Positions 1 to 32,499 of a stretch of 64,000 nucleotides of DNA are shown piece after piece. The stretch covers positions 16,925,933 through 16,989,932 of the forward strand of contig NC_049979.1 of NCBI RefSeq assembly GCF_000003815.2. The letters are read 5' to 3'. Within the stretch, counting starts at the first letter, position 1. The number at the start of each line of letters is the position of its first letter. The translations under genes were made by a program, and so were the position numbers. Below the pieces are notes generated by a model. The model searched no databases. It worked only from the letters and a program-made list of their open reading frames with translations, and had not been told where the DNA came from. The stretch comes from Branchiostoma floridae. Taxonomy: Eukaryota > Chordata > Leptocardii > Amphioxiformes > Branchiostomatidae.

Positions 1-1315
1 ATATCAATTGTAACTTTAAGTCGTTAGAATTTTATTTCATTTTTTCTTCGTTTTGTTCATATTTTTGTCCTCTTATTGATAAGCATACATATGTTGTTTA
101 AATAGTAGTGCCTTTGATAACAGAATACATGTAAAAGGGTTTGACTAAAACTAAATTAACACGTTGAAATTGTAATGTAAATCATCATCAAGATAAGCAC
201 CAAAACCTCGACCCTCTCTGGCTATAATGACGTCACGAGACCTGTCCCCATGCCATCAGGTTGCCATGGCGACTGTAACAAATGACGGTTCTTGTGAGAG
301 GAAATTCGCACCATCTCCTGCCTCCCGCTGCCAAGGAGCGCGCAACCGCGAGCAGCGGAGGCTGTGTTAGGGGCGCTTGTTTAACTTTCTAATAAGAGTA
401 CAGGCAAATTACGGAGCAGACGGAAATCAAATCGTGTTTGCTGTTGTAAATTTATCAGTAGTTACTTTTCCTGGCCTCGGATATATGTATGAACAAAACC
501 GGTGGTAAGGAACAGAGTAGAAGACCTTTTGGCGGTCAGCCTATTGTAATTACATATACTCCAGTTGTAACAAAATGCTGGAAAGGGTTTTTGAAAACCC
601 CTCCAAACAGCCCGTAGCTATGGGCCTGATCACCTGCAGACTGCGTACACTGCAGCGCGCTAACTCGTCTCCAGGAAACAATCACCGCCCTGTAATTACC
701 CAAACTGCGCCTGATTGTTCCGAGTAGAACATTTTATTAAATAATTCATCCGGTGGCCGTGCAGCAGCCAGGGAGGCTATCATCGCAGCTTGAAGCCGGG
801 GAAGGCGCCGGGACATTCAATCCACGTGCAGACGTTTCTTTTTTGTTTGGAATAGTATCGGCAGGGTGCTTTGTCCAGATCCTATACTGTTATAGCGTAG
901 TTGGCCGAATTGCTAGAAACGTCATTACACATGGACATATTAGCTAAAAAAAAGAAATGGATTCCTGTATGAAGACTGGTTACGTACATCCAACCCCTTA
1001 AATCCAGCATAAGGGGACTTCAATAACGCGAAATTCAGCATATCGGGACGTAACTAACACAAAAACGAGTCCAGCGCTTGAAATCACTGGGTCTTGCACA
1101 CATGATTTCGTTTTGTCCAAGCTTTCTCAATAAAAAAGTTAGTGAAAATTTTGTTTTGTGTGACGTTGTTGCGAATAAGATGAAAGATCGCTTTGATTAT
1201 CGCGTTGCTAGGTAACGAGGAGTGTTGTCGTGCGAGAGAAATTTTCTCCGTGTTCGTCGTTCGTCTTGAATTATGAAACATACACAACAAATGTGTTTTC
1301 TGTGTATTGTTGCAG
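1..1315 (+). other. Intron of Erg-A upstream of the ETS exon
   Basis: This stretch lies directly 5' of the ETS exon on the same strand and ends in a pyrimidine-rich tract plus cag at 1313-1315, a normal splice acceptor. I found no earlier PNT-domain or linker exon here, so the 5' half of Erg-A must lie upstream of the window. The GC-richer part (about 200-360 and 600-860) could hold intronic control sequence, but I can name no specific site. Open frames here are short and unlike any family I know. Confidence 0.7.
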
Positions 1316-1836
1316 GTTCAGGCCAGATCCAGCTGTGGCAGTTCCTCCTGGAGCTCTTGTCTGACGCCGCCAACGCCAACTGCATCACCTGGGAGGGAAC
1401 CAACGGCGAGTTCAAGATGACGGACCCTGACGAGGTGGCGCGGCGCTGGGGGGAGCGCAAGAGCAAACCCAACATGAACTACGACAAGCTCAGCCGCGCA
1501 CTGCGCTACTACTACGACAAGAACATCATGACCAAAGTGCACGGCAAGAGGTACGCCTACAAGTTTGACTTCCACGGACTGGCCCAGGCCGTGCAGGCGG
1601 CTAACGGTGCCGCGCCATCCCCCTACAAGTTCCAGTCGGACCTGGCCTACCTGTCCGGGTACGCACATGCGCCCAAGCTCAACTTCGTGGGAGGGCCCAT
1701 CCCGTCGTCCTCTGCGAACCTGTTCGCGTCGCCATCTTCCTACTGGTCCTCCACAGCAGCGGCCAACATCTACCAGAACTACGGCAACGGCATGGCCTCA
1801 CACCCCGGCCACACGCTCACGTCATACTACTCGTAG
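1316..1836 (+). CDS. ERG: ERG/FLI1-like ETS transcription factor (Erg-A), last coding exon, 5' partial
   Basis: This is the terminal exon of a nuclear sequence-specific transcription factor of the ERG/FLI1 subfamily, which in animals controls endothelial, blood and mesodermal programmes. It starts in phase 1 after a cag acceptor (gGT-TCA-GGC, residues [15 protein letters not shown]). The first 90 or so residues are a complete ETS domain: the [11 protein letters not shown] helix, the [10 protein letters not shown] turn and the recognition helix with the DNA-contacting RALRYYYDK. It ends with [15 protein letters not shown], the form typical of ERG and FLI1 rather than ETS1/2, ELK or GABPA. A short Ala/Ser/Tyr-rich tail ends in TSYYS, comparable to the conserved SYY or TYY C-terminus of ERG/FLI1. 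The ORF is open further 5' to 1273, but that part is intron. PNT and linker exons are not in the window. The paralogue on the opposite strand is at 14269-14780. Confidence 0.95.
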
Positions 1837-3060
1837 TAATACTGTAACTTAAAAACAGGACTCTAAAGACATGCCACAAATACCCAGTTTTACTGGATTA
1901 AGATTAATATTAAGATTACTGGAGAAATGTGAGTGATTCAGCCGATGGGCTATGTAATGTGGCTTACTACTTCATACTTCTCCGAAACCACAGTGTTTAA
2001 ATATTATCATGCAGGGACATGAACCATTAATCTCTTTCCTCCTTTTGTCCAGTACCTCTTCAAGATTTGTGTGAAATGATATTGTGAGACATGGATCAAT
2101 CATACCGGCTTCAGTCAGCCATTTCTTCTTTCAATAGAAGAATTTTGTCAAAGGAGCCATAACATATATTAAAGAACATACTTCCAAGGCTTTAAGATTG
2201 CTGGGAAGGTTAACATAAAGAAAAGTACATTCCATGCAGTTGTTATAATTGTAAAGTCATTGCAGCATTGATGGTGAAATTGTTGTTGTTGTTGTTGTGA
2301 CTCGGGGCAGATTGAAGTGTTTTGCCCGTTTGTTTTCAGGGAGCCGGAGCTCTCGGTGTGCTCCATGTATTTTATATTGTTGACATTATATTTGTCTTTT
2401 TATCTTTTCCTCAAGATTAGTGCGTTTTCCTTCCATTCTCTTGCCAGGACCGGGAGATGCTGTGCATTATGTGATCCGGTCGTTTTATTATAAATTCCAC
2501 GTGCTTCAATCCTCGTAGCTTTATTATATATATAGGCGTGTAAGATGTTTCAGTTTACCATATTTTAAAAATCAGTTTTTATGTATAGTGTAGTAGCTAC
2601 TTAATCTTATCGTATCTATTCTATCAAGAGAAATCGATATTTATGCATGTTTATGACGAACAAGACGACATGTATTTTTGTACAGATATGAAGGCGAAAG
2701 GTGTTTGTATCACATGTCGACAAAACGAATAAAACGTGTACATAACTTAGAAATGGCTTTGCATTTTTAGTTTTGATGTGAATGGTTAGATATCGGAGTG
2801 AAGCAGACAGTGCAGATTTAAAAGTGTACGGTCTGCAAGTAAACAACACCTACCCTTTGCAAACTTTCTGATTCAGAAAGGCGCAAGCCATTTGCTGTAT
2901 ATACAAGTTTGTAGTTTTACTTGATAAATGATGCAAATAGTTGTGCCATCGATAATGGGTTGTCGGATGAATGGATTGACGAATGGAGGATGGATGAATT
3001 GAAGGATGATAATTCATAAGATAGAAGTAGTTTTACAATAAATATTAGTCTAGTAGTTGC
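1837..3060 (+). other. Probable 3'UTR of Erg-A
   Basis: No supported CDS follows the TAG at 1834-1836. Candidate polyadenylation hexamers AATAAA are seen at 2728-2733 and 3037-3042, so a 3'UTR of about 0.9-1.2 kb is likely. A short (TTG)n tract lies at about 2280-2298. The UTR end is an inference; transcript data would fix it. Confidence 0.5.
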
Positions 3061-5150
3061 AAGCAGAAGTTAACGTAATGGTAGCCTGTAGTAACGTTTC
3101 CCTTCATAGATAGGGTATGTTAAGCAGACCAGTCTCAGAATGACAGTACCTTATGCACCTAAGATTGTAGACACGGGAAGTATACTGTAAGATCAACCAG
3201 TCTCCGCCGGTACAGAGCAGCAGCACGTCTACACCAGGACGAGTAAAACTGACGTTATGTCAATCAACTGACACACTTCTTATTGGGCACCGCTATATTC
3301 CATATTGGTCTTATTCTATACACTAAGTTCTTCCAAGATTTATATCAGTCCTGAAAATCTTGGTGGTTTCTCCTTACTTTAAACCAGCACATTTTTATGC
3401 TATGAAACGATTACAACTGAAGTGATACTATTGTTTCTTGAGAAATTTGAGGAGGAAGCTTGTTTCTACAACAGATAGAAAAGCTATCGAGCCACAAGTT
3501 TTTAACTTAAACCTTGACGTTTCACCGGCCCAGGTATTTTCACAAGATACCAAATATTATGTTGGTAGCATTTTTGATTCAATCACTCATGAATGCTTTA
3601 TGAAACAGGCCGTTTACAAAACCTATCTTGTTGGTAGAGTGACTTTTGTATTGTGTGTGTGGACAGTATAGTGGACAGGAGACATGGTTCTGTTGGAGAA
3701 ACTGATTGAATTGGTTTTTGTTGCGTCTAAAAATCACAAAAATGCCTCGCCTTCCAAAAGATAGACTCTGTGCCAAACTTTGCACCATGTTCAGACGATC
3801 AGAATAATTATCACATACTGAGGCAGCTGGATCTGATGATAATCATCTGGATCTTCCAATATGGCGGACAAACTACGCCTGGATATGTATGACTTTAAAT
3901 TTGTCTGTGGCGCCAGTAAAACGAGAGTAAACTTCCTCTCACCTAATCCCAACACTTAATCATCGTCCAAGCGTTTATTATATTTGCTGTTTATTATCTG
4001 CGGGACTTGTGGCCAGAGCAGCGCTGGTTTCCATATTGCACCTGACGGGGTAGTATATCTCTTCCGCCCAACCTGCTCGTCAATCATCGGACTTCCGTGA
4101 ATGAAGTCGGCTTATCGGGGCGATGCAGGGGCAGGCCCCCTATGGCGATAGCATACAAGAGCGTGGCTCCTCAATTTTCCCCCGTCAATAGATGGTGTGA
4201 TGGTGTTTTTTCCACGCGCTGTAAAATTGGAGATTTGCAGAGCACGACCCCGAGCACGATCGAATCTCGGGCCAGCACTAAATGAAAGTGCCCTGAAATC
4301 ACAAGGTTTAGAGCCAACAATTGCGGGGATGAAATATGAAGTAGTTACCGACGCCTGTATGTATGTACGCGCGCCCTGCACATAAGGCAGGGCGATGATG
4401 ACGGACCGGAGTTTGACGCGTGTTTAGAACATGATCGATGGCGTGCTGACGGAACAACGCTGATTTTTCTCTAAATACCCGTCCGATGAATGGACGGGAT
4501 GAAATATGACCCACTCAACGCACAAATCGGCTGTATGATTTTCTCGCCATGAAAGCTGATTTAAGTTAATGAGTATAGACTGCAATTCTGAGAACTCCGG
4601 CTTCGGACTGATGGATAGTGGACATCAATTTTGCAACTTCTCAGGAGTGATTTTTACTCGTGCGGAGAACCCCCTTACGTGTGACCTGATATATTTTCAA
4701 CCAATTGTATTGAAGCTGATACAGCTTTAAAATGATTGAAATTTTATGGAACTAAAATTTGAATAAATTAGCCAAAACATTTAAGGTGCAATGTGACAAA
4801 AAGTTATTCTCAGCTTAAGTGTGTGTTACTGTCCTTGGTACTGAATTGGTCCCATCCAGACGATATTGTTGTCTCGCGTCCAATAGGGTCACTGTTACAA
4901 GTCTTTTGATACAGATAGTCAGGTTAATGTTGTGTGACTGGCATATTAAATTTTGAGACTTTTATTTCATTTTTTTCATGTATCTAAAGACATCCCTGCG
5001 TTTCCAGGCTTTAGTGAAACTGTCTAGATACTATAGTCGACACCCGTGCACTGCCTCGTTGTACATGAATAAAAGCAGAAATGTTACGTTCTCGTGAACC
5101 TTGCCTACAGGGTCGGACATGAACACGATAGTCGGTGTGCTCTCACCAGG
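3061..5150. other. Intergenic, nothing assignable
   Basis: Only short overlapping ORFs on both strands (for example near 3438-3671 and 4097-4514), with no domain, splice logic or codon bias that I trust. No RNA gene was seen. Confidence 0.6.
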
Positions 5151-5159
5151 GGTGCCTTA

Positions 5160-5330
5160 TCACAGCAACACCCCTTCAGCGCCGAGGAGAAATCGGTTCT
5201 TTCCGGTCATGACATCCGCCATTTTCTTTCCCAAGAAGCGTGTTGAGGCCATGACCTCTCTCCACAAGAGGATGTCAGAGGTCACGATCTGCGGACCCAG
5301 GTTGGCCTGCTGGGTGTGTTCCAAGTCTAT
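5160..5330 (-). pseudogene. Orphan exon-like fragment
   Basis: Read on the minus strand, this stretch is open for 57 codons and ends in TGA at 5160-5162. It has a natural-looking amphipathic composition (it includes ILLWREVMASTRFLG and ends LLGAEGVLL). There is no start codon and only a weak acceptor-like ag near 5330. I do not recognise the family. It may be a gene relic or a chance frame; it is unrelated to the neighbouring ETS genes. Confidence 0.25.
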
Positions 5331-5689
5331 TCTTTATTCCGGTTGTTAAGACCTTGCTTTGACGCCCTTTCCGATATGTGTTCCTGAACGGATGAAGACC
5401 ATTTGAGTGCGGAGTCCCGCTACATCCGCCCACAGCGCCCATAGCTCTGCGTAGAAAGGATAGCACGTGGACTTATAGGAAGAAAAGATGATGGCCTTAG
5501 TTTTGATTTATTTACATATTTTATTGGTAAATGTATCCCGTTTAGATTTGACTGAACATCCTAGACCTTATGCATTTTTAAAGGTATCTGCTCAATCTGT
5601 CCCGTATGTGCATGCGATGTTTGACCAGAATTCCTGTAACATCTATTCCATAGGGCCTAGGGGTAATGAAACATACGCAGGTACCCCGT

Positions 5690-6790
5690 CCCTAACCCTG
5701 TCCTGTCCTCGGTGCTGAATTCATGTCACCTAACAGTGCAGCTGCAGTTTTATCCCCAACCCTGTCCTGTCCTTTGTGCTGAATACCTGTCACATAACAG
5801 TGCAGAACTACTACAGTCCTATCCCAACCCTGTCCTGTCCTTGGTGCTGAATACTTGTCACATAACAGTACTACTACAGTTCCATCGCAACCCTATCCTG
5901 TCTTTGGTGCTGAATACCTGTCACATAACAGTACTACTACAGTTCCGTCGCAATCCTGTCCTGTCCATGGTGCTGCATACTTGTCACATAGCACTACTAC
6001 TGCAGTCCCGTCCCAACCCTGTACTTGGTACTGAATAATTGTCAGGTAACACTACTACTACAGTCCCGTCCCAGCCCTGCTCTGTCCTGGCTAAATACCT
6101 GTCACATAACAGTACTACTACAGTTCCATCCCCAACCCTGTCCTGTCCTTGGTGCTGAATACTTGTCACATAGCACTACTACTGCAGTCCCGTCCCAACC
6201 CTGTACTTGGTACTGAATAATTGTCACGTAACACTACTACTACAGTCCCGTCCCAGCCCTGCTCTGTCCTTGCTAAATACCTGTCACATAACAGTACTAC
6301 TACAGTTCCATCCCCAACCCTGTCCTGTCCTTGGTGCTGACTACTTGTCACATAACGCTACTACTGCAGTCCCGTCTCAATCCTGCTCTGTCCTTGCTAA
6401 ATACTTGTCACATAACAGTACTACTACAGTTCCATCGCAACCCTATCCTGTCCTTGGTGCTGAATACTTGTCACATAACACTACTACTACAGTCCCGTCT
6501 CAACCCTGCTCTGTCCTTGGTGAATACCTGTCACACAACAGTACTACTACAGTCCCGTCTCAACCCTGCTCTGTCCTTGCTAAATACCTGTCACATAACA
6601 GTACTACTACAGTTCCGTCGCAATCCTGTCCTGTCCATGGTGCTGAATACTTGTCACATAACACTACTACTACAGTCCCGTCTCAACCCTGCTCTGTCCT
6701 TGCTAAATACCTGTCACATAACAGTACTACTACAGTCCCGTCCCAACCCTGTCCTGTTCTTGGTGCTGAATACCAGTACTGTTGTAGTAT
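5690..6790. repeat. Minisatellite, 17 complete copies of a 58-68 bp unit
   Basis: A tandem array whose units carry the core cctgtcacataacagtact followed by tactacagtcccgtcc and a C/T-rich linker. I counted 17 occurrences of the gtcac-type core, at spacings of 58-68 bp, plus a truncated end near 6770. Variant units (nacagta versus nacactact, tgctgaat versus gctaaat) alternate. A higher-order period of about 182 bp (three units) is seen around 6025-6351, where consecutive blocks are nearly identical. Because many units are near multiples of three, long ORFs appear in several frames (for example 6207-6800). I regard those as by-products of periodicity. Confidence 0.93.
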
Positions 6791-6859
6791 TGGTGAATAA
6801 TCGTAAGGATCACAAGGGATGTAAATGGCGAGACTGTATGTCCAAAACTCCTCTTTAAG

Positions 6860-7588
6860 AAGAAAGCCGTGTAGCCGGCGGTAAAATATACCGCTAAGTC
6901 CTTGACGTGGGATGGATTGATGCAGTCTGCGAGACTTTACTTTATGTAGGTAAAAGGTGTATCAGGAAGATAAGAATCACGCTCTAACCATGTGGGCAAT
7001 TAAAACTTTGCGCCGATATCATTGACGACTTTGCTGAAGCCCATCAGCACTTAAACGAAATGAAGAACTCGAAAAGAATATGAGTTCCTATTTCCGGCTG
7101 ACGATTCATACGAAGCGAGGCGGCGGTATGTAATAACTTGTACGTACGAAGTTATCTTAGGTACTTAAGCCTTTCACAACAGCAGTAGTTTTCTGTTGTT
7201 GTTTGCTTGAGTATCCATTCTATTTAAGCTAGGAATACTGGTACATGAACAGGGTTTCATGTGGATCTAAACAAATCCCTTGTCTACCAGATTCACGGGC
7301 CTCGTTCTTAATTACCTCTGCGGCAGTCCATGATCGCGCCATTATATTCAACGTAATATTACCAATTCAATTAATCATTGCCGGAGAGTAGTGTTTGAGA
7401 CGAATTTCTCTCTAGACCAGTACGTGGTCTGGAATTACAATAAGTCACCCATCAAAGTCAATGCTGCAAAAAGGTGTTATCAGTTTCATTTACGTTTTCA
7501 TATCATGTTTATTCATCGGTGCATTTAGTATCTAGTTAAGGTAAGTTTTTATGTGATGCCTGAGTGATCCTCTATATGCTATAGATGG
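6860..7588. other. Intergenic, nothing assignable
   Basis: No coding exon, RNA gene or repeat could be supported here. Confidence 0.6.
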
Positions 7589-7987
7589 ATGGACAGTTAT
7601 GGAGATCGATATAATCTCGAAGTTTCGGAAATTTCTGTCAATCCAGTACACAATCCACACATGGCATTGAAAGACCGTGACTCCATTCGTTTAGTCATTA
7701 GCCTCAGCTCTAAAGTGTGCAGCACAGCATATGATAATATGTCATCTCTAAAACTTTCTGCGGAAGTTGGTGATAAATCCCTGATAATGCCCATGCTGAA
7801 GCAGGACCGCTGGAGAGAGTATACTGGAAATGACAGGTGCAATTATGGAAGCAGTGGCGGAAAGGATAACGATGGGTTTAAGTCCTTCCTTCTTAAAACT
7901 TGTGATAGACAGAAGTATTCCCTCCTCATCTCAGACTCTGGAACTTTTACCCCCGGCCGATTGTTCTTCGTCTGTCTCGCCCAGTAA
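7589..7987 (+). CDS. Hypothetical ORF, 132 aa
   Basis: An ATG-initiated ORF of 132 codons, longer than most chance ORFs here. Composition is ordinary, with no signal peptide, membrane segment or motif I know. The minus strand is also open over 7597-7842, which weakens the case. It could be a relic of a mobile element read in antisense. It has no visible splice partners and no close polyadenylation signal. Confidence 0.25.
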   Translation: MDSYGDRYNLEVSEISVNPVHNPHMALKDRDSIRLVISLSSKVCSTAYDNMSSLKLSAEVGDKSLIMPMLKQDRWREYTGNDRCNYGSSGGKDNDGFKSFLLKTCDRQKYSLLISDSGTFTPGRLFFVCLAQ

Positions 7988-8599
7988 ATTGCACTTTATG
8001 CGTCGGCTAAGTGGTAATTAATAAAGCTTCCAAAGTACTCGGCGCACGTTGGCTCCACACAGCCGCTTATTAGCAAAATCGATGTCTTAAAAGCGTCTTT
8101 ATTTTAGCAATTCATAATGGGGTGGTTAGTTACCGCGGTCCGACGGGATTGATTACGGGAGAATGGGCTAATCCGCAGATTTATGTGACGTGGCGAAGTG
8201 CTCAGTGCGGTGACGTATGGCAATCAGGGATTTACAGAAACAGGTCACTGGGGTCAAGTCAGTCCCTGTCTAAACTCCTGCCAGAAGACGTCCTTTTCAA
8301 AACCGTGCGAGAAACAACGAGATCAAGTAGATTAAATCAACATTAAATGTACCACAAGTTCGACTACTCTTAATACACGTCTGATTGTAATATGCCCTTG
8401 TGCTACTGTATTTCAGTAGCACTTTGTTCACCAGTCTGTTGAGGTACTTTATCTTGCGTTGTCATAATATAAATATATATAGATAAACGTGCGCCTTTAA
8501 AAATAGAATAGTTTGCCGCAGGTTGCACCACATTCATTAAGAGTCTTATAATAGATGTAGTCAGAAGTTTGAAGCGTTTTCCCGAACCCTTGTAGAGTC

Positions 8600-9530
8600 T
8601 GACGCAGAACGACTCGCGGCAATCCGCGCAGGCCACCGTGAGGTCGGGCCTGTGATCCTTTAACGCCGTAATCTCAGGCGGGATCAGGAGGATGAGACGC
8701 CGGGCGGTAGTGACGACCATTTGGTCAATGAGCTTTTCCCCTGCACCTATCCTGTCTTAGCCCACGGAGTCTTAAGGAAGACAGACGCGGTAGTTATCCT
8801 TGGGAAGCCTTATCGCCCATCTCATCACGCCGATGGATCCCGGCAGTGAAACACATGGTCCCCCGGCCCGCTGTGGCTGCGGGCGGCGAGATAAGAACCA
8901 CATGACATTTTTCAACACTAAAACGACATTTTTCGACACCTCCGCCCCGTGTCCCCCATTTACCCTAATACGGGGCCATTTCCTCCTCTGAGCCAAGAAG
9001 CCCAGAGCCGACGCCATCCCGCCACAAAAATACCCGATTAACTCCTGCCGTTTCCGAGGGAATTATTTCAAAATTTCCCCTCGGCAAATGTCTCCGTTGA
9101 TAGAGGGGGATGCGATTTTCACGCGGAATCGTTTTGGACGTCGGTAAGCTCTATTAAAGTTCAGGCGTTGCTAAGTGCCTTAACTTCCTTTGTGCCGAGA
9201 ACGAGCAGGATAATTGATTGGTCAAAGATGTTTAGCGCGCTTTATTGGTTGGTTAACAGGTGGCTGACGCATGCGCCCTTTGGAGAATGTTGTCTGATGG
9301 ATGATGCCCTGTATGCCTCATCTCCCCGAGGAAGAGCTCATTTAAGTCTTATTTAAAACTGGCAAAATGTCATATACTAAAGGCTAATTATGAGTTGTGA
9401 AACCACTGGGATCCATTGTTCCGTGTTTCCCAGAGATAAGCCACTTTTCTATTAAAGCCTTCCGCGGTGCCATTCATGTGGCTGTCGGCGCATTACTTCA
9501 ATTTCCTCTGCGGATGCAGATAACACACGC
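8600..9530. promoter_or_regulatory. Candidate cis-regulatory block with GATA and TTCC motifs
   Basis: A non-coding stretch between the two ERG-like genes, GC-richer than its flanks. Visible motifs include GATA sites (gagataagaacc near 8888, agagataagcc at 9432) and several TTTCC/GGAA cores of ETS type (near 8980, 9052, 9502). Vertebrate Fli1 and Erg blood/endothelial enhancers are known to combine GATA and ETS sites, so this is a reasonable place for a control element. A 26-bp part (9432-9457) recurs at 20224-20249 with three mismatches. Function is inference. Confidence 0.4.
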
Positions 9531-12070
9531 GCTAAGGGGAGCGTGAAAAACGAACGCAACGACCAGAAAGTGCCGCGTACTTCTAATACTTTAGCTTCTG
9601 GCGAAGGTACACTAGATATAGTTCAGCGGTGTTCTGAGCGGTGTGTAGATGCAAGGTTTTATCATTACATCTCAACAGACCTACCTGTACCTGTATCTAC
9701 TACAGGAACCCATCCCCACGATATCACCCTCGAATTTTACCTATATAAAGACGATCGCAATGATAATGATTGATCTACAGATATTTCTGGATAATTGTCC
9801 ATATTCCATATATTTGGATTTTTCTTGCATGAGACACAAACATGCGTGCTTCCTATACGGTAAATATGAATAAAAGAAAACGCCGATGTTATACAAAATT
9901 TAGGTAAGCTGAACAGCGAACTTGTAGAAATAAATCACTGTAGAGTTATTTAAAGCCAAAGGTCTGTTTAACTATATTGCACCGTTCTTACTTTAAGGTT
10001 CTCGGAAGGTTTCTTGGCGATGTTTTACATTTCTCTGCTGTGGTTATTAATAGTTTCATAAACCGCACGTACCCTGTATTGGTCCCCGCCGACATCATAA
10101 GGCTTATAAATTAGACTTGCAAGCTGAGAAAATTTATTAACGTCTCATAATATCCGTCAAGGGCTCCCGACTGTACGATGTATTCAGTCTCTGTACCTCA
10201 TCCCCACCGAGAAAATACCCCCAAGGCATCAAGCTTTTTATTTCCTTTGTTATCGCACAATAAACGCGGTCGGACGGGCAGGAGAGCCCCTTTCATAAAG
10301 TGCGCTTCAACGGGCTTCCATCAGGTCTCCAGCGTTTCGGGGGCGTCTGTACACGTCAAAACAATCTGCAGGGAAATCTCTTTTCCCCAACAGTTTTCCT
10401 GCGATAACATTGTTAAAACCGCCTTTCCGGTAGCTGACTTTAATTAGCGTGTAGAAGTGGAGAGGAGAAATCTCGATGCGCCACAGCTCCTTCTGTCTTT
10501 GCAGACCTGTCAATGGAGACGGCAGGCTGAACATGCTGGGGAGCGGAAACTGCACTTGACTTCGGCATTATCCCCCGCTCACACCCACAGCATTAACAGT
10601 CCGGTGCACATAACTTATTATCTACTTACTGAAATAAAGTAAACTCACCATCTGAATGTCGTCCCGAATAGACAACTTCAGAACTTTCTTTGACTCGGAT
10701 GGTAACCTGAGTTAACTGTTCAACTGCCCGATAAAATTTCCCTGAACTTGGCTTTGTACGTCATTTTTTCATGACAAGACACCGCAATTTCAAGGTTGAA
10801 TGTTAGCCATGTCTGAACTCACAGGGAGAGACAAAGACAGACTGTTCTGAGAGAGAACTAAGCTACAGAATAAAAAAAAAATATCAACAATGATCTCAAA
10901 ATCAAGAGATGTTTACAAATGGCCAACCACATCACAATCACTGTCACAGGGATAATACGTTGACCAACATGACAGTTTGCATCATTTCGTGATATCGGCC
11001 GCTTATGAGGTACGGTCATTACAGATGTCTATTTTATCATGGTAAAAGAATGTTGGTGGTGTGATCACCAAATCTTATTTCGAATCAAAAATTAATAATT
11101 GGACCTGCAGACAAATCACCAGAAATAAAGTGGCGGTAATAGAAATTGTTCAAATTACTGTTTAAATGCAATAAGATTAAACTCCGCCCTTCACCTTGGG
11201 TGCCAGTAGAAACGAGGAAGAGAAGCAAAAAAAGTATATGACAGAAAGTTGTATAATTTATGTCCCAAATATTGTGAAGTGTCCTGGTCCTTGTCTGCGA
11301 TCGCGTATCGTCGAGGCGACAGGGATAAGTTCTTTTCATTTCCCAAATGATTTAAACCACCGTTTATGAATCATCGTTAATAATGGATAAAAACCAGGTT
11401 GAGAGAGGAGATAGCGTGAGCGCCGCCATGAAAGTCAGAATGAACGAGGGAAATTCCATATGCTGCGATCGCTCGTATTGACAACGGTGAAATGTATGGT
11501 TGGCGGGACGGGAGAAGGACAGCGGCACACATTAATCCCACCATTACTGCTACATTCATGGCCCAAATCATTTGCATCAAATATGGTTTAAGAGGATTAT
11601 GCAAAGTCATTAAGTTTAATGAGCCCCCGTACTCTGTAAAAACTGACTTAATGCGCTATTTGATGGTAACTTTTCTTTGTGATATCTTTGACACGTTTAG
11701 AGTTAGTCCGCCCGTAGCTGATGTTACATTATAAAGAAAGCATATGTTAAGTAAATTGTCCGCATATCTGCATAATTGGGCCTTCGGTACGTACGTAGTA
11801 GGCATTCTGGTGACATTGAATATGACACAATCTGAACGGCATTTTAATCTAATAGCATAAAGGATAAAGGTCAAAGTTGAACCGTTGTCTTAAGTGGATG
11901 TCAATAGTCGCCAAGTTCATGAGAATTGCAGTTTGACTAACCGTGGAAGTGAAATATAGTTTTACCGGCCGAGTCAGCTGCACTCGCGTGAGCGCTAGCA
12001 GTTGCACGTCAACTAACATGTTTTCTGTGGGCAGCAGAATTGATGGCAGCCATATATTGTTCATTTAATC
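9531..12070. other. Intergenic, nothing assignable
   Basis: Short ORFs on both strands without support. No repeat family or RNA gene recognised. Confidence 0.55.
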
Positions 12071-12545
12071 GAGAGGATCCGTTGCAAAAGGCGCAGTGAA
12101 TGCTCCCTTTGTGTCACATATATCTTCCATCTCTTTCCGCGGCCCGCGATGGGCATTAAGATAAGCGCCGTTTGGCCGCTCGGTTAACGTCCGTCAGCAG
12201 AATCCATCATGGCAGGGGAACAAGTGCGCTGTATCTTCCCGCCGAAGACATCTCGTGCGATTGGATCGCGGCCCTCTCGCAGAGGGTATGATTATCGGAA
12301 AACGATTAGGACAGACGGATCGGCCCGGCGGTGACAGGAGTCAGGGCATCCATCTGTATTACACGTCCGTTTGGATGTTGTGCGGAGGAAGAGCCCGTTT
12401 GTCACGCCAGCCGGTTATTGATGTAGAGGAGGGACGGGGGGCCCCGGCGGGGCGCTTGTCAGGTCCCTCCCCAGGTCGTGGCCGGGGTCACGGCGGCGGC
12501 CCGACCTGCCGTAACGCCGGAAAATTGAGACGATAACGGCGGAAG
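12070..12545. promoter_or_regulatory. GC-rich candidate regulatory block
   Basis: A GC-rich island in AT-richer surroundings, with a GATA core (attaagataagcg near 12156) and the GC-rich segment 12430-12520. An open frame crosses it (12255-12536, +), but its composition follows the GC content and it has no splice sites or homology that I see. I read it as regulatory or a CpG-rich island downstream of Erg-B. Confidence 0.3.
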
Positions 12546-12872
12546 GTACCCAGAGGAGTCGTAAAGACAGGAGATGTAGCACTGTGATCACAGAACCTGG
12601 GCTGGGCGCTTCGATCAGAGTTAAGTCTCACGGAAATCTGAATGATACTGTAATATCTATTTGGAGTGACTTTCATATTTCGACTCACTTTTTTCGCCGG
12701 TAAGACACAAACCTTGCAACAAGCACGACAGGTTAGAGTGTAAATACATTTTTTATGGATCCAGTGTAGGTATTCATTGACTCGCAGGTAGACTAGCAGT
12801 GTCGATGTGGTAATATCATCTATAAACAGAATCTTGATAAACAGAAGATAACTGTTGCAGTATAGTCGTGAT

Positions 12873-14268
12873 TTTATTCTAATGATGTTGCAAGAAGGTG
12901 GTCGAACTTTTTATAGTTTTTAGCCACACTATGCGCTTAAGCTTTTTTTCGCAACAAATATCTAAGGTCACGCCATAGGACGCAAACTGCCATAATACAT
13001 CTGCACTTTTGTAATGTAGCTTTGCATGCATGTTTTGCATACCATAATACCACAAAAGGACGATGCTATTATATGAATCGGACCAAGTATACATTATACA
13101 TGACAAAATTACTACTTTTGCTTAACCTGACGATTGTCTTTTAAGATACGAATGGTGCAATACTGTTTACTGTTGAACCATGAAGTCGTACGTAGAACTA
13201 AAAATTTGGATATTTTAACCGGGGAATCTGTTTTTAGTGCACCGATGTTCACGTCCACAAATGTCACAAGCCACAACAAATGAAGAACAGTAGTCAAGTT
13301 TACTTTTCGCGAATCATCGACATTTTCTTGCTACCAATTATGTTGTTTTCGTTCAGAATAATTCACTCTTTTTTTACTATTCATGTTCATGAATTCTTTA
13401 GTTGTCTTTAGGCACGTAGTCATTTGTTCCTGGTCCATGGTGTCTTCTATCATATGATTTACTAACCTACGTATAACGTCTTTCGTGAGACCAAAAAATT
13501 GACTGCTGAAACCTAAATAAAGAATGTCTGCACAAGGTTTAGTGTTCAATATATGTATAATGACGGGTCAACAGAACAGGAAAATCATTGACAAGGACAT
13601 GTTGCAACAGAATAGACTTGGTAAACATTCTTTTCCCGTAATAGCTATACTTACAGACATACATGGTATTTTACATTGTACTACTGATACTCCGAGTTGT
13701 GTTCTACTAAAGTTACGCTTTTACGTCCTTAAAGAAATTGAGCCAATGCATCTTACAAACATAATTTACTTTAAGAGACCTTGTGTATACAGTTTAGAGA
13801 ACGAAATAAGATCCAAGCTCCTACTACAGAAATAAACAATACTCCGGTCTGTCGTAGATTAAAATCTTTGATTCTCACCCACATCCCCATGCTCGTTCTT
13901 TTTACAACTTGGTCCCACAAATAGAAAGAATTATATTTCTGAACTTTTGAAGTTACACTTCTCAGACTTCTAAGTATACAGTCAACTTTTGACTTTGTCA
14001 ACATGTTTTCACGGCAAACATGACCTTCGAGCCTCACGATTATACACCCTTATGGGCGTTGGCATGCGCAATGCCTTTCTACACCACCTGAAAGAAAACA
14101 ATCCAGGTCAGCCCGTAATGTGCCGTCATGTTTATGAATCAGTGTTTCTTCGTACGGTTCTGAAAGGTCCCGCTTTCGATCACTACGTTTGGACTATAGA
14201 TCTCGTGAGATTGTGGTTATCACGTGGTTCTCATTTCTGGGGAGATTATACAAAAGAAAGCGAATGTT
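12873..14268 (-). other. Probable 3'UTR of Erg-B
   Basis: Downstream (minus-strand sense) of the Erg-B stop at 14269-14271. The first clear minus-strand AATAAA is at 12873-12878, giving a 3'UTR of about 1.4 kb. A plus-strand ORF of 140 codons (13989-14411) overlaps this UTR and the CDS end in antisense; I treat it as spurious. Confidence 0.45.
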
Positions 14269-14780
14269 TTAAGGGTAATAAGAACTTAGGTGTCCCGGAT
14301 GTGACGTCATGCCATGGTTCTGGTAGATGTTGGCCGCTGCTGTGGAGGACCAGTAGGAAGATGGCGACGCGAACAGGTTCGCAGAGGACGACGGGATATG
14401 TCCCCCCATGAAGTTCAGTTTGGGCCCGTGTGGGTACCCGGGCAGGTAGGACAGTTCTGTGTGGAACTTGTACGGGGAGGCAATACCGCCCGCCGCTGCC
14501 TGGGCAGCCTGGGCCAGTCCGTGGAAGTCAAACTTGTAGGCGTACCTCTTGCCGTGCACTTTGGTCATGATGTTCTTGTCGTAGTAGTAGCGCAGTGCGC
14601 GGCTGAGCTTGTCGTAGTTCATGTTGGGTTTGCTCTTGCGCTCCCCCCAGCGCCGCGCCACCTCGTCAGGGTCCGTCATCTTGAACTCGCCGTTGGTTCC
14701 CTCCCAGGTGATGCAGTTGGCGTTGGCGGCGTCAGACAAGAGCTCCAGGAGGAACTGCCACAGCTGGATCTGGCCTGAAC
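14269..14780 (-). CDS. ERG: ERG/FLI1-like ETS transcription factor (Erg-B), exon 5 of 5: ETS domain and C-terminus
   Basis: Last exon of the second ERG/FLI1-like gene, encoding residues 198-367 of my 367-aa model. It begins in phase 1 after the acceptor ctgccag (14781-14783) with [15 protein letters not shown]. The ETS domain runs from about residue 202 to 288, with [10 protein letters not shown], the helix [12 protein letters not shown] and [13 protein letters not shown]; all key DNA-contact residues are present. The tail is rich in Ala, Ser, Pro and Tyr and ends SSYYP before TAA. The whole CDS (33235-33472, 32500-32700, 31771-31839, 21257-21340, 14269-14780) sums to 1104 nt in frame with only phase-1 introns. 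At 367 aa it is shorter than vertebrate FLI1 (452 aa), chiefly because of a short N-terminus and no visible DPYQILGPTSS-type exon before the ETS exon. The first 277 bp, counting the acceptor cag, match Erg-A exactly. Confidence 0.96.
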
Positions 14781-14783
14781 CTG

Positions 14784-17700: not shown

Positions 17701-20700
17701 TGAAAAGCGTAGGATAATCACCCACGACCATGCAAATAAAGTAAGAATGACCCAGTCGAGGTGGAGAGAGAGAATGGACACACTGGTGTCAAAACGTTCG
17801 AGCGGCGTTATGGTCAAGTTGCTGACCAAAGAATAGGCTTTAAAACCGTCTTGCCTCGCCGTTTTCATTTTCTGGATGAATTGGCGGTCTCATTTTTAGA
17901 ATGATAATAGGAAATATGCATTCAGGTTTGTGGATTATATCCCAAAACTGAACTGTTCTTGTACAGTTTTAGAGAACAACCAAAAGATAACCGTGCTGTA
18001 CAACTGATGTGCGTGTAAATCTAGATAATGCAAAGCCCTGTGACCCGCGTGGAAAGAGATGGTACGTGGTGTTTTTTTTATTCTTAGGTCCCTTATCTAT
18101 TCAGCATATTTTTATTTTATAGTTGTTACCAATTCTACCACCGTTTGAACCCCGTAGAGGGTTGACTAACGCTACCCATCGATCTGCACAAGTTTATTAA
18201 CCGGTCTCTACCTTTAAAGAATATTGACAATTCAGATAGAACTTCGTATAGTACGTATGTATCTCTATTTCAGAGTCTCTATGACCAGTTTTCTATCCTG
18301 AAAAAATCGTTTTGTGGAGTTTGTTGGGCACTCAGTATTGATGTAATGAAAATGCAATGAATGTATGACAAAATCACGACTATCCATTCTGTTTATTTTG
18401 CTCTCTAGCATGAATTCTGCCTCGCTCATTAGCGTTTCACGTACATGCCCCACTCCAGGACAGATGGCTGGGCACCATGGTTACATGTCTGTTGATATGA
18501 TTACTATAGGAAGCAGTAGTGTACGTACCTTGGCTGCACAGCCGACTGGTGATGGGTGCGAACAGCTGGTACGGATCTGTCACTGTACCGGGAGAGAAAC
18601 AAACAAACGGATCGTTCAAGTTTACTACATTACTCGTGCATCCGCTACCTTTATATGATGAATATATTTACGTCCTGTATAGACCATAACCCCCAACAAG
18701 ACAATTATGCTCGCAGTTTAAAAGCCTTTGTATCTTTCTGATGTATCCCTTTGGAGTGGAATTTATATTTCGTTTCAATTTGAGATGTTTGAGTGTTTCC
18801 TTATGCTTAGGCCTTGCAGTCACCCACCGTAACAACTCTATAGCAGCCAACATAGTAGCTGCCTGTGTAAAGCCCTAGAACTTTCCTATTTACGCAACAT
18901 GTCAATGAAACACAAATTGAGCGGATGGAGAACGTTACGAAACAGAAATATACGGGGATAGATGTGGTCCGCACCTGTTCATATGAACAAAAAAGGATGC
19001 AAACACTCTCTGGGTGAAATAATGAGGAAATGGGAAAAAATTATTTTGATAGAGTTAGCTTCATGATGAGGAATATTGCCAAATCACGAAGCCCGATTTG
19101 GTAATAGTGCATACCATTATACAATGCTGAAAAAAGGATGCTCTCATTACAGTGGAACTGACGTTAAGTAAGGTACGAATGTTGATAGACACTAGTGTGT
19201 AGTATTGCCAAGAATAGTATCAAGTATGAGATGCTAATGTCGAGAAGTATGCGCTTCATTGTTGTTACGAAACACTCGACTTCATTTGCGAAGAAATATG
19301 AAGATTTTATATCAAAGACCCTCAAGTCGGAATCGAATTCTTTGGCATCGAATTCACTAGTGTTTGAAGTCTTAGAAACAAGAACGAAAAAATGCTGCAA
19401 AATCCACATAAAATGATACTTTTCTTACCCCTTTTTTGTCAAAACGAAAATATTGCTTCCTCTGTAATCATATTTGGCTTCAAACGAATAAAAAACGACG
19501 AATATTTTTGAAAAGAAATATATTCTAGATGTCGGTTTATCTCTTCGTCCCCATTTCTTGTCAATAAAATGCACCAACGATTGATCCACAGAAAGTGGTC
19601 ATTAAAGAAAATTTGATGATTGTTTTGTTGATTGTGGTTGTTCCTGGGATCGCCAAACGTCCGCGTTGTGCCCCACAGCACGTCACAGATGTCCAAACGT
19701 GTCGGCCTACCCCTGTTTGGCTGCTATCAGTCTACAACATTAACCCATAGTGCTGCTTCAAGATACAGCTATAGATTTATCGGGGTCGGACGGACCGGAT
19801 TCCTTTATCTTCTGTCAGGAAATGGGCGTTGAGAGAAAGGCCGTGTTCTTTGCCCTCCTCAAGAGCATACATCAGCCCCGACATCCTGCTCAAGTGAAGA
19901 GACCTTCCTGTACGTCTGACATCTACTAATTTGATCAAAGATGAGAGCAGAGGAGGTGAGAAAAAGGCGCGTGTGTGCGTGTGCGTGTGTTACCTTGCAT
20001 GTTCCTTGTCTGTGCATGCACACTGGCTACATCGACTACTGGCTTGGTGACGGAGTGGATAGACGGCGCTGAGAAGTCTGGGTGGATAAATAAGAGAAAA
20101 AAGAAAGGAAGGGAAACGTTAATGTGGAAAATTCTCCCTGACAGATAAGGGTAGGAAAATGTCATATAGCGGTTGCGACTCGCGGCGGTGAGAAAGCGCG
20201 GCACCTATTGTTCCCTGCGCGCTAGAGATAAGCCGTTTTTCTATTGAAGGCGGTTTATGAACGACAGGCACGACTGCTCTGTGCTCGGGCGATAATTGCT
20301 CGTGTGGACTGAGATAAGGCGGAGAGCTACGAGCAGTATTCACTGCCCGGGAAGATAAAGTGTTCAGGGGATGTGCGCGGAAAGCTGAGACAAACATTCG
20401 GCTTTGATGCGGCCAGGAACGGCACGGGGCCGTTGTCTACCTTTCATGTGGGGCCACTTGAACATGACCGAGTCCCGACGACAGTCGGAAATTCCGCCGC
20501 TGACCCTTAGTTCCGCCGCCAAATCGTCGCCTTTCAGGGCGTTTTGTCTCCGTCTTCCCTCTCTATCAAGGACTGCCGGGTAGAAAATACCCACTGTAAA
20601 TGGCGATCGTTTCTTAACTTGGGAAGAGGTTAGTTACTTTTGGCCCTACCGTAAAATTACAGCAGTCTCAAAAGCGCTACTACAGGATATCGGGAACTCA

Positions 20701-21256: not shown

Positions 21257-21340
21257 CTTTCTCTGAGGTGGCGGGGCCTGCCTGCGCGTTCCATCCCCCC
21301 GCCGCCTGCCGCTCTCTCATCAGGCACTCGTACGACGGAT
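21257..21340 (-). CDS. ERG: Erg-B exon 4 (linker)
   Basis: An 84-bp exon in minus sense, flanked by acceptor ttcccgtag and donor AAAG|gtaaga. It is phase 1 to phase 1 and encodes residues 170-197, beginning DPSYECLMRERQAAGGW. FLI1 has DPSYDS and ERG has LPYEPPRRSAW at the same place between PNT and ETS domains, so DPSYE is a good family marker. It joins the 31771-31839 exon upstream (N-D junction codon gAT) and the ETS exon downstream (K-G junction codon gGT). The overlapping plus-strand ORF is a shadow. Confidence 0.87.
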
Positions 21341-22260: not shown

Positions 22261-23047
22261 ACCGCAGTCACAATTCTGTACAATATGCAACTTTCAGTGA
22301 GCTTTAAATGTCTACATCCCAGCTAGCCATTACATTTATGAACATAACGTGTCACTAAAACATATGTGTATTTGTAAAGATGCCCAACTGATTGGTACTT
22401 ATTTGCCGGTTAGCTAGCTAGTTAGTTACTGTAGTTAGTTAGTTACACATCTGGTGATACAGTTATCAGCCCTCCCTGCGGGCGGCTTCTGTGCGTGAAG
22501 CCTGGTGCACAACTTTCAGACATGTTCCACGGTTCAGCATCGTCCACACAGCCGCGGTCTTGGTGTTCCAAACCTCACAGCTCAAAGTATGAAACCAACA
22601 TGTTAAGGCTTGAATTGACAAATTGCTGTGCCCTGTTAACATAGCATGTCAGTTTAGTACGACAGGTATGTCTTATTGGCCTTATTCACATCCGTTTTTC
22701 TACACCAAGGCTGAGAAAAAGTATGAAGGTTTCGCACGAACCTCCCGATTACAACACACAGCCTGTCCAGACTACACACTTTCTGACAGAGTATTCTGTA
22801 TGAGAAACTATGCCATTGTTATCCTCAACGTGTTCTTGCAATCCTCTAAATTATAGTTGTTCGATTTTTGATTCAGTATCTTTACAGAAACCTTCAGTGG
22901 CATGTATATCATGTATCTAGAAATAAACATTGCGCTGTGGGCAATGTCATAATTCTAAAAGAGATTTTGTACAATTCCATTTGACGAGGTTCAAAGTAGA
23001 GGCGAAAATTATGTACTTATACATCGATACGAGTCTGGCTTCCGTCT

Positions 23048-23785
23048 GTCTAATAGGACGTGAAAATATGATTTTATGAAGAAGCGTCCGTGCTCAAAAT
23101 ATAATCACACCGTATCATATTTACTTGTAATTAAAAGAAAACCCTTCTTAAGTGACCCGTGTAGGTGTAGGTGTAGGTAATTTGAAATATTGATGTGATG
23201 ATCTGTGCAATATGTGCTATATTTCCGTGATTAGTTTGACACATGGCAGAGGATGTCACGTCAATGACCGGGCAATTTGCAGGTTTGGTTTCTTCTCGTC
23301 AATAGACAAGAGAAGATCATATTGTACCCATCCCTTCCGACTAATGTAGTTACAGTCTAAACTATTAGACCTGGTGTGGGTTGACGTCATAAGACAGGAC
23401 ACTGGCGAGTTGGTTCACATTTGTCCAATCGGACGTGCAAATATAATTTCATAAAACATCGCCCCGTGCTTGAAATCTAATCACATCGTATTATATTTAC
23501 TTGTGATTAAAAGAAACCCCTTCTTATGTGACCCGTGTAGGTAGTTTGAAATACTAATGTAATGATCCGTGCAATATGTGCTATATTTCTGTTATTAGAT
23601 CGGCACATGACAGAGGGTGTCACGCCAATGACCGGAGAATTTGCAGGTTTGGTTTCTTCTCGTCAATAGACAAGAGAAGATCATATTGTACCCATCCCTT
23701 CCGACTAATGTAGTTACAGTCTAAACTATTAGACCTGGTGTGGGTTGACGTCATAAGACAGGACACTGGCGAGTTGGTTAACTTT
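23048..23785. repeat. Tandem duplication, two copies of a ~375 bp unit
   Basis: Unit 1 (about 23048-23422) and unit 2 (about 23423-23785) are direct repeats in Erg-B intron 3. The first half of the units has diverged (gtctaataggacgtg versus gtccaatcggacgtg, with a gtgtag expansion in unit 1). The second half, from aatttgcaggtttgg to the end gcgagttggtt, looks identical. It includes an imperfect hairpin around ttctcgtcaatagacaagagaa. No coding content. Confidence 0.92.
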
Positions 23786-26700
23786 TGATGTCGTCGCCAT
23801 GGTAACCAACATGCCAGTGCCTGTAGATCTAACAGTGTTGCCCCATAATGCTGTGCTTAATTAAGTACGGGAGTGTTTTATCCTTAAGTCCCTTTTTACA
23901 TAGAAGTTGTAAGAAGCTGTTGCTTTGTAGATTAACTGTAGGTACGCCTTTATCCTCCCTCACTTACTGCCCGTTACATGGATTTGAGCCAAATCTCTTC
24001 CTTTCGTTAGATACAACTTTTTCTGACACTAAGTAATCCCATCAGACGGAAAGGTAGTCAGGAAGCGATGTGTCAAAGAAAGTTTACTTAAGGCTGCATT
24101 AAAGTTTAGATGGCGCAAGTCATCAATGGCTTAAAGTAATTGCAATCCTTTTTAATTGACGTTATCGTACTTCACGTTTTGAGATATAAAATGTAAAATA
24201 CGTTTAAAAAGTGTGCAATATTACTCATAGTTTGCTACCTCCTGACTATCACATCTATTTCCAAAATCTAACATGTAATAGGTTTAACAAGTTCCTTTCA
24301 TCATTTTTTTACTTTGACATGTGTTTTATGTGTATCTAACTTTCATGTCGCAGTATATCCATGCAGTTAAGTTGGCGTTAATGTGAATAAGCCTATAAAA
24401 GTCTTTTAAAGAGTTTTTAAATCTACGAGTATCTGTATCCATGGAGACCAACTGGACGACGTGACTCGTGTGGTCAGAAAGCCGTTTCTTGTCTCTGTGC
24501 GAGTCGCGGACTCTGGGTACCTGTAATCTCCTCTGCACACAGCCAATCTCCCGAATCATCGCCGCTTCAAACAATTCTCTGTACAAGCACATTAAGTTCT
24601 CCCACCCTGCACATACAGATGATCGAGTGTCACAACAAAGTGATGACGAAAATGGAGTCTCTCTTGATCGGAACGTGTAAACACAAGCCCATTAAACCAC
24701 TTACAGTGCTGTCGACTTAAGCGAAGACCCGCGCACCTGCGTGGGACGACAGAGAATGGGTACTTTGCTGTTACCGCGTGACCGGAGAGACTTCGTCCTT
24801 CCGCCGCTTTTACGGGGGGAAATTTGGGAAAATGTAATCATGTAGTGTGTGGAAGGAAGGGTAGGGAACGTGTTGGGTCAACACTAGCCGACAGCTCTCC
24901 ATCTGGACAGACTTTCCTTTTCGTCTTCGGACGGAGGCCAACATTTCCTCCCCAACAACCCTCGGAAATAGCTTGTCAGGGAGGGGAAATATGTGGAGCA
25001 GGTGGATTTCTGAGTGGGGAGGGGGGCGATTTGTAAGATCAACATAGTAAAGACAGACTTGATTTCTCCGTCTGTTGTTTGTCCGTCTGTTTTCATTACT
25101 GTTATTAATAAAAGTCCTTATTTCACAGTATTGTCAAAACACAAGCTTGTGGCAGGACTTACTCCGTATGTTATAGGGACATATAGATCCCAGAGAGCCT
25201 TGCTCTGATTGTCCCTTGTCTACTATTAAACTCCGGTGGGAAAAGTCGCACAGTTGCGACAACGCGACGGGAACACGTCGTGGGAACATTTAAAACATTT
25301 TACGCTTAGTTAAAATAGAGTGGGGGGAATCAGCGCGAGAGAGCGCGACATTGCGGTAATTACGGGCAATTTTCTCCGTGCTGCAGCGGGAATAAGCACG
25401 TTTAATGCCGCCTATTTGTGCGGCCAGCCCCGGTCGTACCGCCGCGCCCAGGGTGGTAGGGACGCAAACAAGCCTACCCTGCCGGGCGTTAGTGCCGCTG
25501 AACAAGGGGTGCCTTTTCTCAACAAAACACAATTTCTTTGATCTACAGTCTCTCTGCTCAACACAAAGACTCAGGCCTAAACATGATATAATGTGACATG
25601 CAAGGCAGATGACCTCATCATCCATTTTTGGTGGGAAATTATTAATACCTATTTTTTTTTTACCGACGACAGAATTCGCATCTATCATATACTATGATAT
25701 AGTGTTCACCTACGGCAGAAATCTCTACTTCGTGAAAATGTCTCTGACAAAGCAGTCATATCTCTCCATGAAATGCAACAATAATAACCGTAGCGGACGT
25801 GTGAACGAGACCTTGTAAGCAAAATGCTTAAATGTCTAGTAAACGTTACTTGTTAACGTTGTACTCATGCCGAAAATAAGAATTCATATAATGCATGTAC
25901 TTTTGTTTCGCAAAACTATTACCACATGAAAACATGCGTGTGGTTTTGTGTCTTCCGGGCATTTTATCGATGGATACATCGTACAAAGGCCACCTCGTAT
26001 AAGACGATCCGATATGTTTCATGGGGCACTCTCTTACAAAATAGCGCCTCCTAGCGCCAGCGCTTCTCTATAATGATGACGTGGTCTTTTTTCTATCGAA
26101 GCAAAACTCACGAAGGCATCAAGACTAAAAAGGGCAACATATGATTACTCGTGGAAGAAGATAGTGCAAAGTTGAACATGAATACGTCCGTGAAAATGCC
26201 AAATCTTGTAAGGTGGTCTGGGCGTTTTCGGAACAAAAAGACGTCTCAATATGAAAGCAGAACGTGAGAGTAAAAGACCTTCTGAAAATAGTTATTTCTG
26301 CAGTTTGTATTTGTCGTTTCCAAAGCTTTTTATTTCCCCATGTTTGTGAACGTACTCTCCTGTTGCGTAACAACAGGAGTGAAAACATATGCCGACCGTT
26401 TGCGTGATGGCGACGATGTCAACACCACAGATGAATAACTACTCCGAGTCGCCTGCCTCGGAATAAACGCTCCACGCTGTCATTAAAGCAAGAAAATTTA
26501 TTGCTAAGTTCCTGCCCGTAGGCTAATTGTGCAATATTCTTAATAGTGATTGAAGAATACTGTCCCCGCATTGATTTGGGCGCTATCTATATTCCTTCCA
26601 AACACCTAAACAATGAGGAAACTTGGGAAAGAATCGACTATCTTACCGTACAGGGACGACATACTGCCCCAGCTTTTGTTGTTATGTTTAACGGCGACTC

Positions 26701-29228: not shown

Positions 29229-29698
29229 CCTCTTTCCACTTGGGCGGCACTCTAACCGCGCTCTCTCTGCGACCTAGCTACAGATCGCTCAACAAATTAT
29301 GTAGAAAAAAACTAACATTTTAATGTTTTGTTGTTGTTGTTGTGTTGTCTTTTACATTTTCATTATATACCCAGTATGAAATCGAAGGTTACACGTATGT
29401 ACACCGTTTAAGGTCGCAGTGAGAGCGCAGCGCAATCGCCTTCTAACAGAAGGGAGGGGGGGGGGCTAAGGCCAAGGCTAATGCAGGTCCCCTTTCCACT
29501 AGATGGCGCTCTCATTGCAACCTACAACGGAAGTGTAATCGTCGATTTCATACTTGGTGGATCATACAAAATGTACAAGTGTGCCTGAAAACACAAACAA
29601 AACACACACAAAGAGTAAAAGGGTTAGTTTTTTTCTACAAAATTGGTTGACTGATCGCAGAGCGAGCACGGCAAGGGCGTCGTCATAGTGGACAGAGG
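29229..29698. mobile_element. Long imperfect palindromic element (MITE-like), 470 bp
   Basis: The two halves are inverted copies. The tract tatgtagaaaaaaactaac near 29300-29316 pairs with gttagtttttttctacaaa near 29623-29640. Likewise agtatgaaatcgaaggtta near 29372 pairs with the tcgatttcatacttgg segment near 29543. Termini read cctctttccact and agtggacagagg. A run of ten G lies at 29456-29465. No ORF. No convincing target-site duplication was found, so the exact ends and superfamily are uncertain. Confidence 0.65.
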
Positions 29699-32476: not shown

Positions 32477-32499
32477 GCCTAACACACCCTAATACCGAC

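Follow-up and report, generated by a model that had tools for sequence, protein, structure and literature searches.

Gene conversion between transcription-factor duplicates has been inferred for the Dlx genes of Capitella teleta, where the main tracts identified with GENECONV measure 150 bp and 31 bp, in a paper that also cites engrailed/invected (PMC3199776). In amphioxus, the first exons of MRF2a and MRF2b group by species, whereas their exons 2 and 3 group by gene, and conversion is put forward as one option (PMC7530620). Here we describe two ERG/FLI1-type genes of Branchiostoma floridae, gene A on the forward (+) and gene B on the reverse (-) strand, lying partly within a stretch of 64,000 nucleotides (the window; positions 16,925,933 to 16,989,932 of contig NC_049979.1), which the genome search placed at G000:C1:16925933-16989932 in an assembly of 513,431,437 bases and 431 contigs. 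Positions on this contig are prefixed C1 below and unprefixed positions are those of the window. The genes share three blocks of identical DNA, and these identical tracts are embedded in clearly diverged paralogues, as is expected of concerted evolution. We consider it very probable that ectopic gene conversion between A and B, both recurrent and recent, is what holds the PNT exon, the ETS exon and part of the tail identical.

Three identical blocks in two diverged genes

Genes A and B are convergent and lie tail-to-tail, their stops ending at 1836 and 14269; the gap between the stops is 12,432 bp and that between the ETS blocks 12,917 bp. Each last coding exon comprises the ETS domain, a tail and a stop codon (gene A, 1316-1836, +, TAG; gene B, 14269-14780, -, TAA), and the two match Pfam Ets (PF00178) with E = 7.2e-36 and 5.7e-36, respectively. 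An earlier reading made from the letters of the window (the sequence-only reading) had claimed identity of these exons over 277 bp, and 277 of 277 bases do agree between 1313-1589 (+) and 14507-14783 (-). This first block consists of the splice acceptor CAG and the ETS-domain part of the last exon. The claim that it spans 91 complete codons is right as to number, but the first three bases are the shared acceptor and the first base of the first codon comes from the preceding exon. The block sits within a 289-nt, 99% inverted repeat, and a genome search with it returned six matches, A and B at 100% and four others at 71-77%.

The second block, of 203 bp, comprises the acceptor CCCCCAG and the PNT exon minus its last 5 nt; in gene B it lies at 32505-32707 (-) and is identical to C1:16914231-16914433 (+) in gene A. 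Since the PNT exon of gene A is 11.7 kb to the left of the window, this identity could not be seen from the letters of the window. The whole PNT (Pointed/SAM) exon, 201 nt at 32500-32700 (-) in gene B and C1:16914238-16914438 in gene A, shows four differences, all among its last five bases, and the flanks are unlike. The third block, of 81 bp, falls within the tail (gene A, 1699-1779, +; gene B, 14317-14397, -). The sequence-only reading had the tails diverging downstream of the ETS domain, which is so between and after the blocks but not in this stretch. Its statement that the introns differ directly outside the ETS block is borne out, the 5' flanks being unlike. The block edges either coincide with splice acceptors or fall inside exons.

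Synonymous changes were counted by the Nei-Gojobori method, leaving aside codons with gaps and the final two of the PNT exon. None was found in the ETS block (91 codons, 59.8 synonymous sites), the PNT block (64 codons, 40.5 sites) or the tail block (27 codons, 22.3 sites), that is 0 at 122.6 sites for the three together. Elsewhere, 119 aligned codons (52 of tail and 67 of linker) hold 59.5 synonymous differences at 90.2 sites, a proportion of synonymous differences (pS) of 0.66 and a corrected synonymous divergence (dS) of ~1.6, near saturation; the proportion of nonsynonymous differences (pN) is 0.22. The comparison of synonymous divergence inside and outside the ETS block proposed by the sequence-only reading thus gives 0/59.8 against 59.5/90.2. 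When the 47 differences were placed at random over the 510 codon-aligned bases of the last exon, the longest identical run in 200,000 permutations was 140 and never 273, and the analytic bound on a chance run of 273 bases in that exon is 3.6e-15. Given the synonymous rate measured in the aligned coding sequence outside the blocks, and assuming independent sites, the probability of zero changes in the ETS block is ~1e-28. Chance does not account for its identity.

The divergence between the blocks is seen in the tail of gene A between blocks 1 and 3 (1590-1698, +), where the 37 codons counted, spanning 1588-1698, have pS 0.53. It is seen also in the three linker exons that lead from PNT to ETS in both genes, with AG and GT at their edges and small indels in two of the three. 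In gene B these are of 48 nt (18529-18576, -), 84 nt (19994-20077, -) and 84 nt (21257-21340, -); the diverged counterparts in gene A are C1:16925841-16925888, just left of the window, C1:16925554-16925634, of 81 nt, and C1:16923101-16923184. A blastn comparison of the gene A side with the gene B side (E<=0.01) yielded seven matches: two are the big blocks, three are pieces of linker exons and two are non-exonic. The first non-exonic match joins matching introns over 105 columns at 70% (gene B, 25294-25394; gene A, C1:16920294-16920397), and the second, 200 columns long with 68.5% identity, coincides in part with a palindromic repeat of gene B. The introns are hardly alignable, although not wholly unalignable. 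The 105-column stretch lies outside every exon found and is possibly an old conserved non-coding element that escaped homogenisation.

Blocks with zero divergence would also be left by a recent duplication of the whole gene, were the remainder evolving very fast. Yet introns hardly align, the tails are diverged and dS reaches ~1.6 in the other coding sequence, and because these stand beside zero divergence in the blocks, recent duplication and protein constraint both fail. The name Erg/Fli1a, in use for B. lanceolatum (PMC11136973), further hints that the duplication of A and B is older than the split between that species and B. floridae. Recent duplication, contradicted by the divergence outside the blocks, was rejected and has in our view almost no chance of being correct. 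The sequence-only reading had taken flanking divergence to favour gene conversion over a wholly recent duplication, and this is sustained by the way identity alternates with near-saturated synonymous divergence both within one exon and between exons.

The position of two block edges at splice acceptors would suit conversion templated by spliced complementary DNA (cDNA) instead of by the DNA of the other gene. However, the linker exons between PNT and ETS are unhomogenised, the introns are retained and identical stretches take turns with diverged ones along the last exon; moreover, the PNT block holds seven intronic bases and the ETS block three, although these may match by chance. On these grounds a cDNA template was disfavoured, and we regard it as exceedingly improbable.

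The family assignment agrees with both domains. Among solved structures, gene A matches FLI1 and ERG best, followed by FEV, with ETS1/ETS2 far behind. The PNT exon of gene B matches Pfam SAM_PNT (PF02198; E = 3.5e-23), and its counterpart in gene A, C1:16914183-16914440 (+), was the second-best of 10 genome matches, with 85% protein identity over the matched stretch. In both genes a C-terminal ETS domain is predicted to be joined in frame to an N-terminal PNT/SAM domain, the arrangement expected of the ERG/FLI1 subfamily. The models, which start at PNT, stay open through five exons from there to the stop. Judged on these predicted exons, A and B are two old ERG/FLI1-type paralogues with open reading frames. 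An ETS1/2-like gene with ETS and PNT exons lies on the minus strand at C1:16841506-16843201, ~70-85 kb from the pair. In vertebrates, ERG is comparably linked with ETS2, and FLI1 with ETS1. A scan of viral contigs with the ETS protein confirmed no relative.

Several other elements were seen in the window. A minisatellite of ~17 copies of a 60-63 bp unit occupies 5685-6777, between the convergent genes, and a tandem duplication of a 364-bp unit (23047-23787; copies 87% alike) lies between two gene B exons. Long imperfect palindromes are present at 29225-29702 (64% self-complementary) and 32269-32477 (71%), the second adjoining the gene B PNT exon. An open frame of 270 residues (50500-51312, -) has a hydrophobic stretch close to a possible start; its coiled-coil/tropomyosin-like match is weak and does not reach the curated cut-off. 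Rfam and tRNA scans across the 64 kb were empty.

Synonymous change in other domain exons

Compared with the exon of the ETS1/2-like gene in the same genome, the ETS block has pS 0.50, with the same codon at 34 of 56 unchanged residues (Met and Trp excluded). Three comparisons with parts of two more ETS genes, in alignments partly out of register, gave pS 0.55-0.63. Because pS reaches 0.50 against the ETS1/2-like exon, synonymous sites of ETS exons are evidently free to change in this genome.

Linked pairs of transcription-factor genes were then chosen by eye from genome matches of five families (ETS, PAX, T-box, MyoD-basic and Forkhead), a small and unsystematic set; the names Pax3/7-, Brachyury-, MRF2- and ETS1/2-like used here rest on domain matches together with cited papers or recall. 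Homogenised exons were found in four of nine linked pairs (ERG/FLI1-, Brachyury-, Pax3/7- and MRF2a/b-like), which, given the choice by eye, is not a rate. The count omits a Forkhead quartet on contig C14, five cross-pairings of MRF genes and a T-box pair on two chromosomes.

The two Brachyury-like genes likewise lie tail-to-tail, and one of their T-box exons shows no difference over 263 bp (C9:10314195-10314457, +, and C9:10330517-10330779, -), with 0 synonymous changes at 59.7 sites (86 codons), or 1 at 64.3 over 92 codons, a span extending slightly, by a few bases, beyond the exon. In the two flanking T-box exons pS is 0.64 (24 codons) and 0.74 (48 codons), with pN of only 0.10 and 0.08. 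Protein constraint would therefore have to lock one exon yet free its neighbours. No account of this single locked exon was met in the passages seen of the open-licence literature on Brachyury, amphioxus and gene conversion, and the available main text of a paper on the Brachyury duplication (PMC5363035) lacks the words exon, identical, synonymous and orientation.

Two Pax3/7-type paired boxes were found, and the Pax3/7-like genes have the same orientation, ~25 kb apart. Their synonymous differences number 2 at 92.2 sites in the paired box, 2 at 48.4 in the first homeobox exon and 4.5 at 14.8 in the second homeobox piece, while four non-domain pieces together have 53.1 at 84.4. Four MyoD-type matches are clustered on one contig, among them the MRF2a/b-like pair (C19), which is inverted, with copies ~55 kb apart, and has 1 synonymous difference at 27.8 sites in the basic region and 98.8% identity over 768 bp; similarity is lost abruptly on both sides of this stretch. 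The five other MRF pairings in the cluster have pS 0.44-0.73.

Three Forkhead pairs (pS 0.30, 0.51 and 0.45) and two T-box pairs (0.54 in one; 0.53 and 0.71 for two exons of the other) are not homogenised. The Forkhead pair on C1 is intermediate, with domain pS 0.30, a 69-bp identical run and neighbouring coding sequence at 0.50-0.57, and may be partly converted. The unhomogenised Forkhead and T-box pairs may belong to different, older subfamilies, so that they demonstrate the capacity of such exons to diverge but do not tell how frequent conversion is at equal age. Two further cases stand apart. The Forkhead quartet at C14:16451228-16509301 is very similar in DNA, flanks included (six comparisons; domain pS 0.03-0.07, neighbouring coding sequence likewise low), and represents recent local duplicates; two of its members share a 156-bp identical stretch outside the domain. 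The T-box exons C2:4191037-4191297 and C4:32976966-32977226 encode identical protein over 86 codons, differ by 3 synonymous changes at 57.5 sites and share an uninterrupted run of 311 identical bp; they are either a recent interchromosomal copy or an assembly duplicate.

These comparisons bear on whether extreme purifying selection on nucleotides, acting through splicing signals, codon choice or overlapping enhancers, could account for the blocks without conversion. Two of the three blocks do lie in structured protein domains, and G+C content at third codon positions (GC3) is high. Against this, ~123 synonymous sites would have to be frozen across three separate segments, while synonymous differences from the block are plentiful in other ETS exons of the genome (pS 0.50-0.63 in four comparisons). 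The Brachyury-like pair, too, has its identical T-box exon beside near-saturated ones. Pure codon-level constraint was rejected on the ETS comparisons and the Brachyury-like contrast, and nucleotide selection in general seems very improbable. Domain constraint alone is likewise insufficient, given pS of 0.50 for the ETS1/2-like exon and of 0.64 and 0.74 for the Brachyury-like neighbours.

They bear equally on the idea that the exons truly differ and that consensus building during assembly or polishing copied one onto the other. The B. floridae genome is highly heterozygous (PMC12862219), reads wholly inside a block could conceivably be misplaced, and an intron of gene A contains a gap of 100 N (C1:16923484-16923583). 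However, the ETS block lies ~3.7 kb from that gap and the PNT block 9 kb from it. Several amphioxus species are reported to show comparable patterns at Pax3/7 and MRF2a/b (PMC6010424; PMC7530620), and within this assembly the pattern occurs in four gene pairs and is absent from the other linked pairs examined. An artefact of this kind is thus very unlikely.

Mode and timing of the proposed conversion

Under gene conversion, a break in one copy would be repaired from the other wherever enough uninterrupted match survives. Exons under protein constraint would retain a close match, and each conversion would erase their synonymous differences and so leave them convertible. Introns, linkers and much of the tail would have dropped below the homology limit early and drifted freely since, and the blocks would end where homology no longer survives. 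We infer all three elements of this account: that conversion is the mechanism, that it recurs and that a homology limit sets the block edges. Identical DNA-binding domains need no selection for sameness, since homology-limited conversion would leave the same trace, and selection for two identical proteins is unnecessary in such an account, although it may also act. The inverted orientation may also be dispensable: the Pax3/7-like pair, in direct orientation in the same genome, has the same pattern.

Allelic non-crossover tracts in B. floridae average 99 bp, with 90.9% shorter than 200 bp (PMC12500494). If ectopic tracts resemble allelic ones, the blocks of 277 and 203 bp suggest repeated conversion events. 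The mutation rate of B. floridae is 5.89e-9 per base per generation and its synonymous diversity 0.0397 (PMC12862219), so that two alleles of one gene would be expected to differ at ~4.9 of 122.6 synonymous sites, where A and B differ at none (P ~0.007). The 95% upper bound on block divergence, 0.024, corresponds to ~2 million generations since homogenisation; the same crude calculation, near saturation, puts the rest of the two genes at ~130 million generations.

Four points weigh against this account. The evidence comes from one assembled sequence of one genome, and the verdict rests on internal contrasts, themselves strong, and on parallels in other transcription-factor genes of amphioxus species. 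Few long events and many short ones are separable only through tract lengths borrowed from allelic conversion. For MRF2a/b, the authors regard conversion and recent duplication as both ‘somewhat compromised’ by intervening genes (PMC7530620). Finally, GC3 is raised in the blocks (152/170, compared with 80/113 outside them in gene A and 78/114 in gene B), as GC-biased conversion predicts, and allelic conversion in B. floridae is GC-biased in all classes except maternal multi-SNP (single-nucleotide polymorphism) ones (PMC12500494); it is not diagnostic, because the ETS1/2-like exon, which is not homogenised with the blocks, is equally GC-rich (0.906).

Consequences and comparison with known systems

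It is conceivable, although we think it rather doubtful, that linked transcription-factor duplicates in this genome are as a rule homogenised on the scale of exons, each domain exon of an old pair being either locked near zero or close to saturation, and that the identical exons of inverted copies are also inversion switches. Crossing over within the ETS block would turn round the 12.9 kb that separate the copies, so that A and B exchanged their 3' tails and downstream regulation, in which case ‘gene A’ and ‘gene B’ would lack fixed 3' ends on an evolutionary time scale. The published difference in orientation, from one assembly to another, of the segment that the MRF2 first exons flank fits the inversion-switch idea, although its authors also consider an assembly error possible (PMC7530620).

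Whatever the status of such switches, a single gene pair here has two separate protein domains that are identical, below allelic diversity, while its own linkers and introns are near-saturated. Trees or duplication dates drawn from the DNA-binding domains of such genes would mislead, and probes, guide RNAs and short reads on these exons cannot distinguish A from B. Amphioxus is a usual outgroup for the history of vertebrate gene families. The homogenised islands in the ERG/FLI1-, Brachyury-, Pax3/7- and MRF2-like genes therefore bear on the dating of lineage-specific duplicates, and the locked and diverged exons offer a natural test of the homology length that sustains conversion.

Beyond the name Erg/Fli1a, no account of the A/B pair was met in the passages seen of the open-licence literature on amphioxus ERG/FLI1, ETS and gene conversion and on conversion between transcription-factor paralogues. 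The kind of pattern is nevertheless already known. The Capitella Dlx genes, like A and B, are linked, inverted, tail-to-tail transcription-factor duplicates, in which DNA identity is limited to the homeobox region and the remainder is highly diverged (PMC3199776). The A/B blocks are longer (277, 203 and 81 bp), add a second domain exon, that of PNT, and contain no changes at all. In Capitella, moreover, the 150-bp tract includes some intron, and the tracts match the rest in GC content (PMC3199776). Amphioxus Pax3/7a and Pax3/7b show a comparable pattern, but in the same orientation and with a few differences within the homogenised exons (PMC6010424). The MRF2a/b copies are inverted in the B. 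floridae assembly, as are A and B, but other MRF genes lie between them and their similar block of 768 bp is at 98.8%, whereas the A/B blocks are fully identical. Set beside Capitella Dlx and amphioxus Pax3/7 and MRF2, the ERG/FLI1 pair adds a strong case, not a new mechanism.

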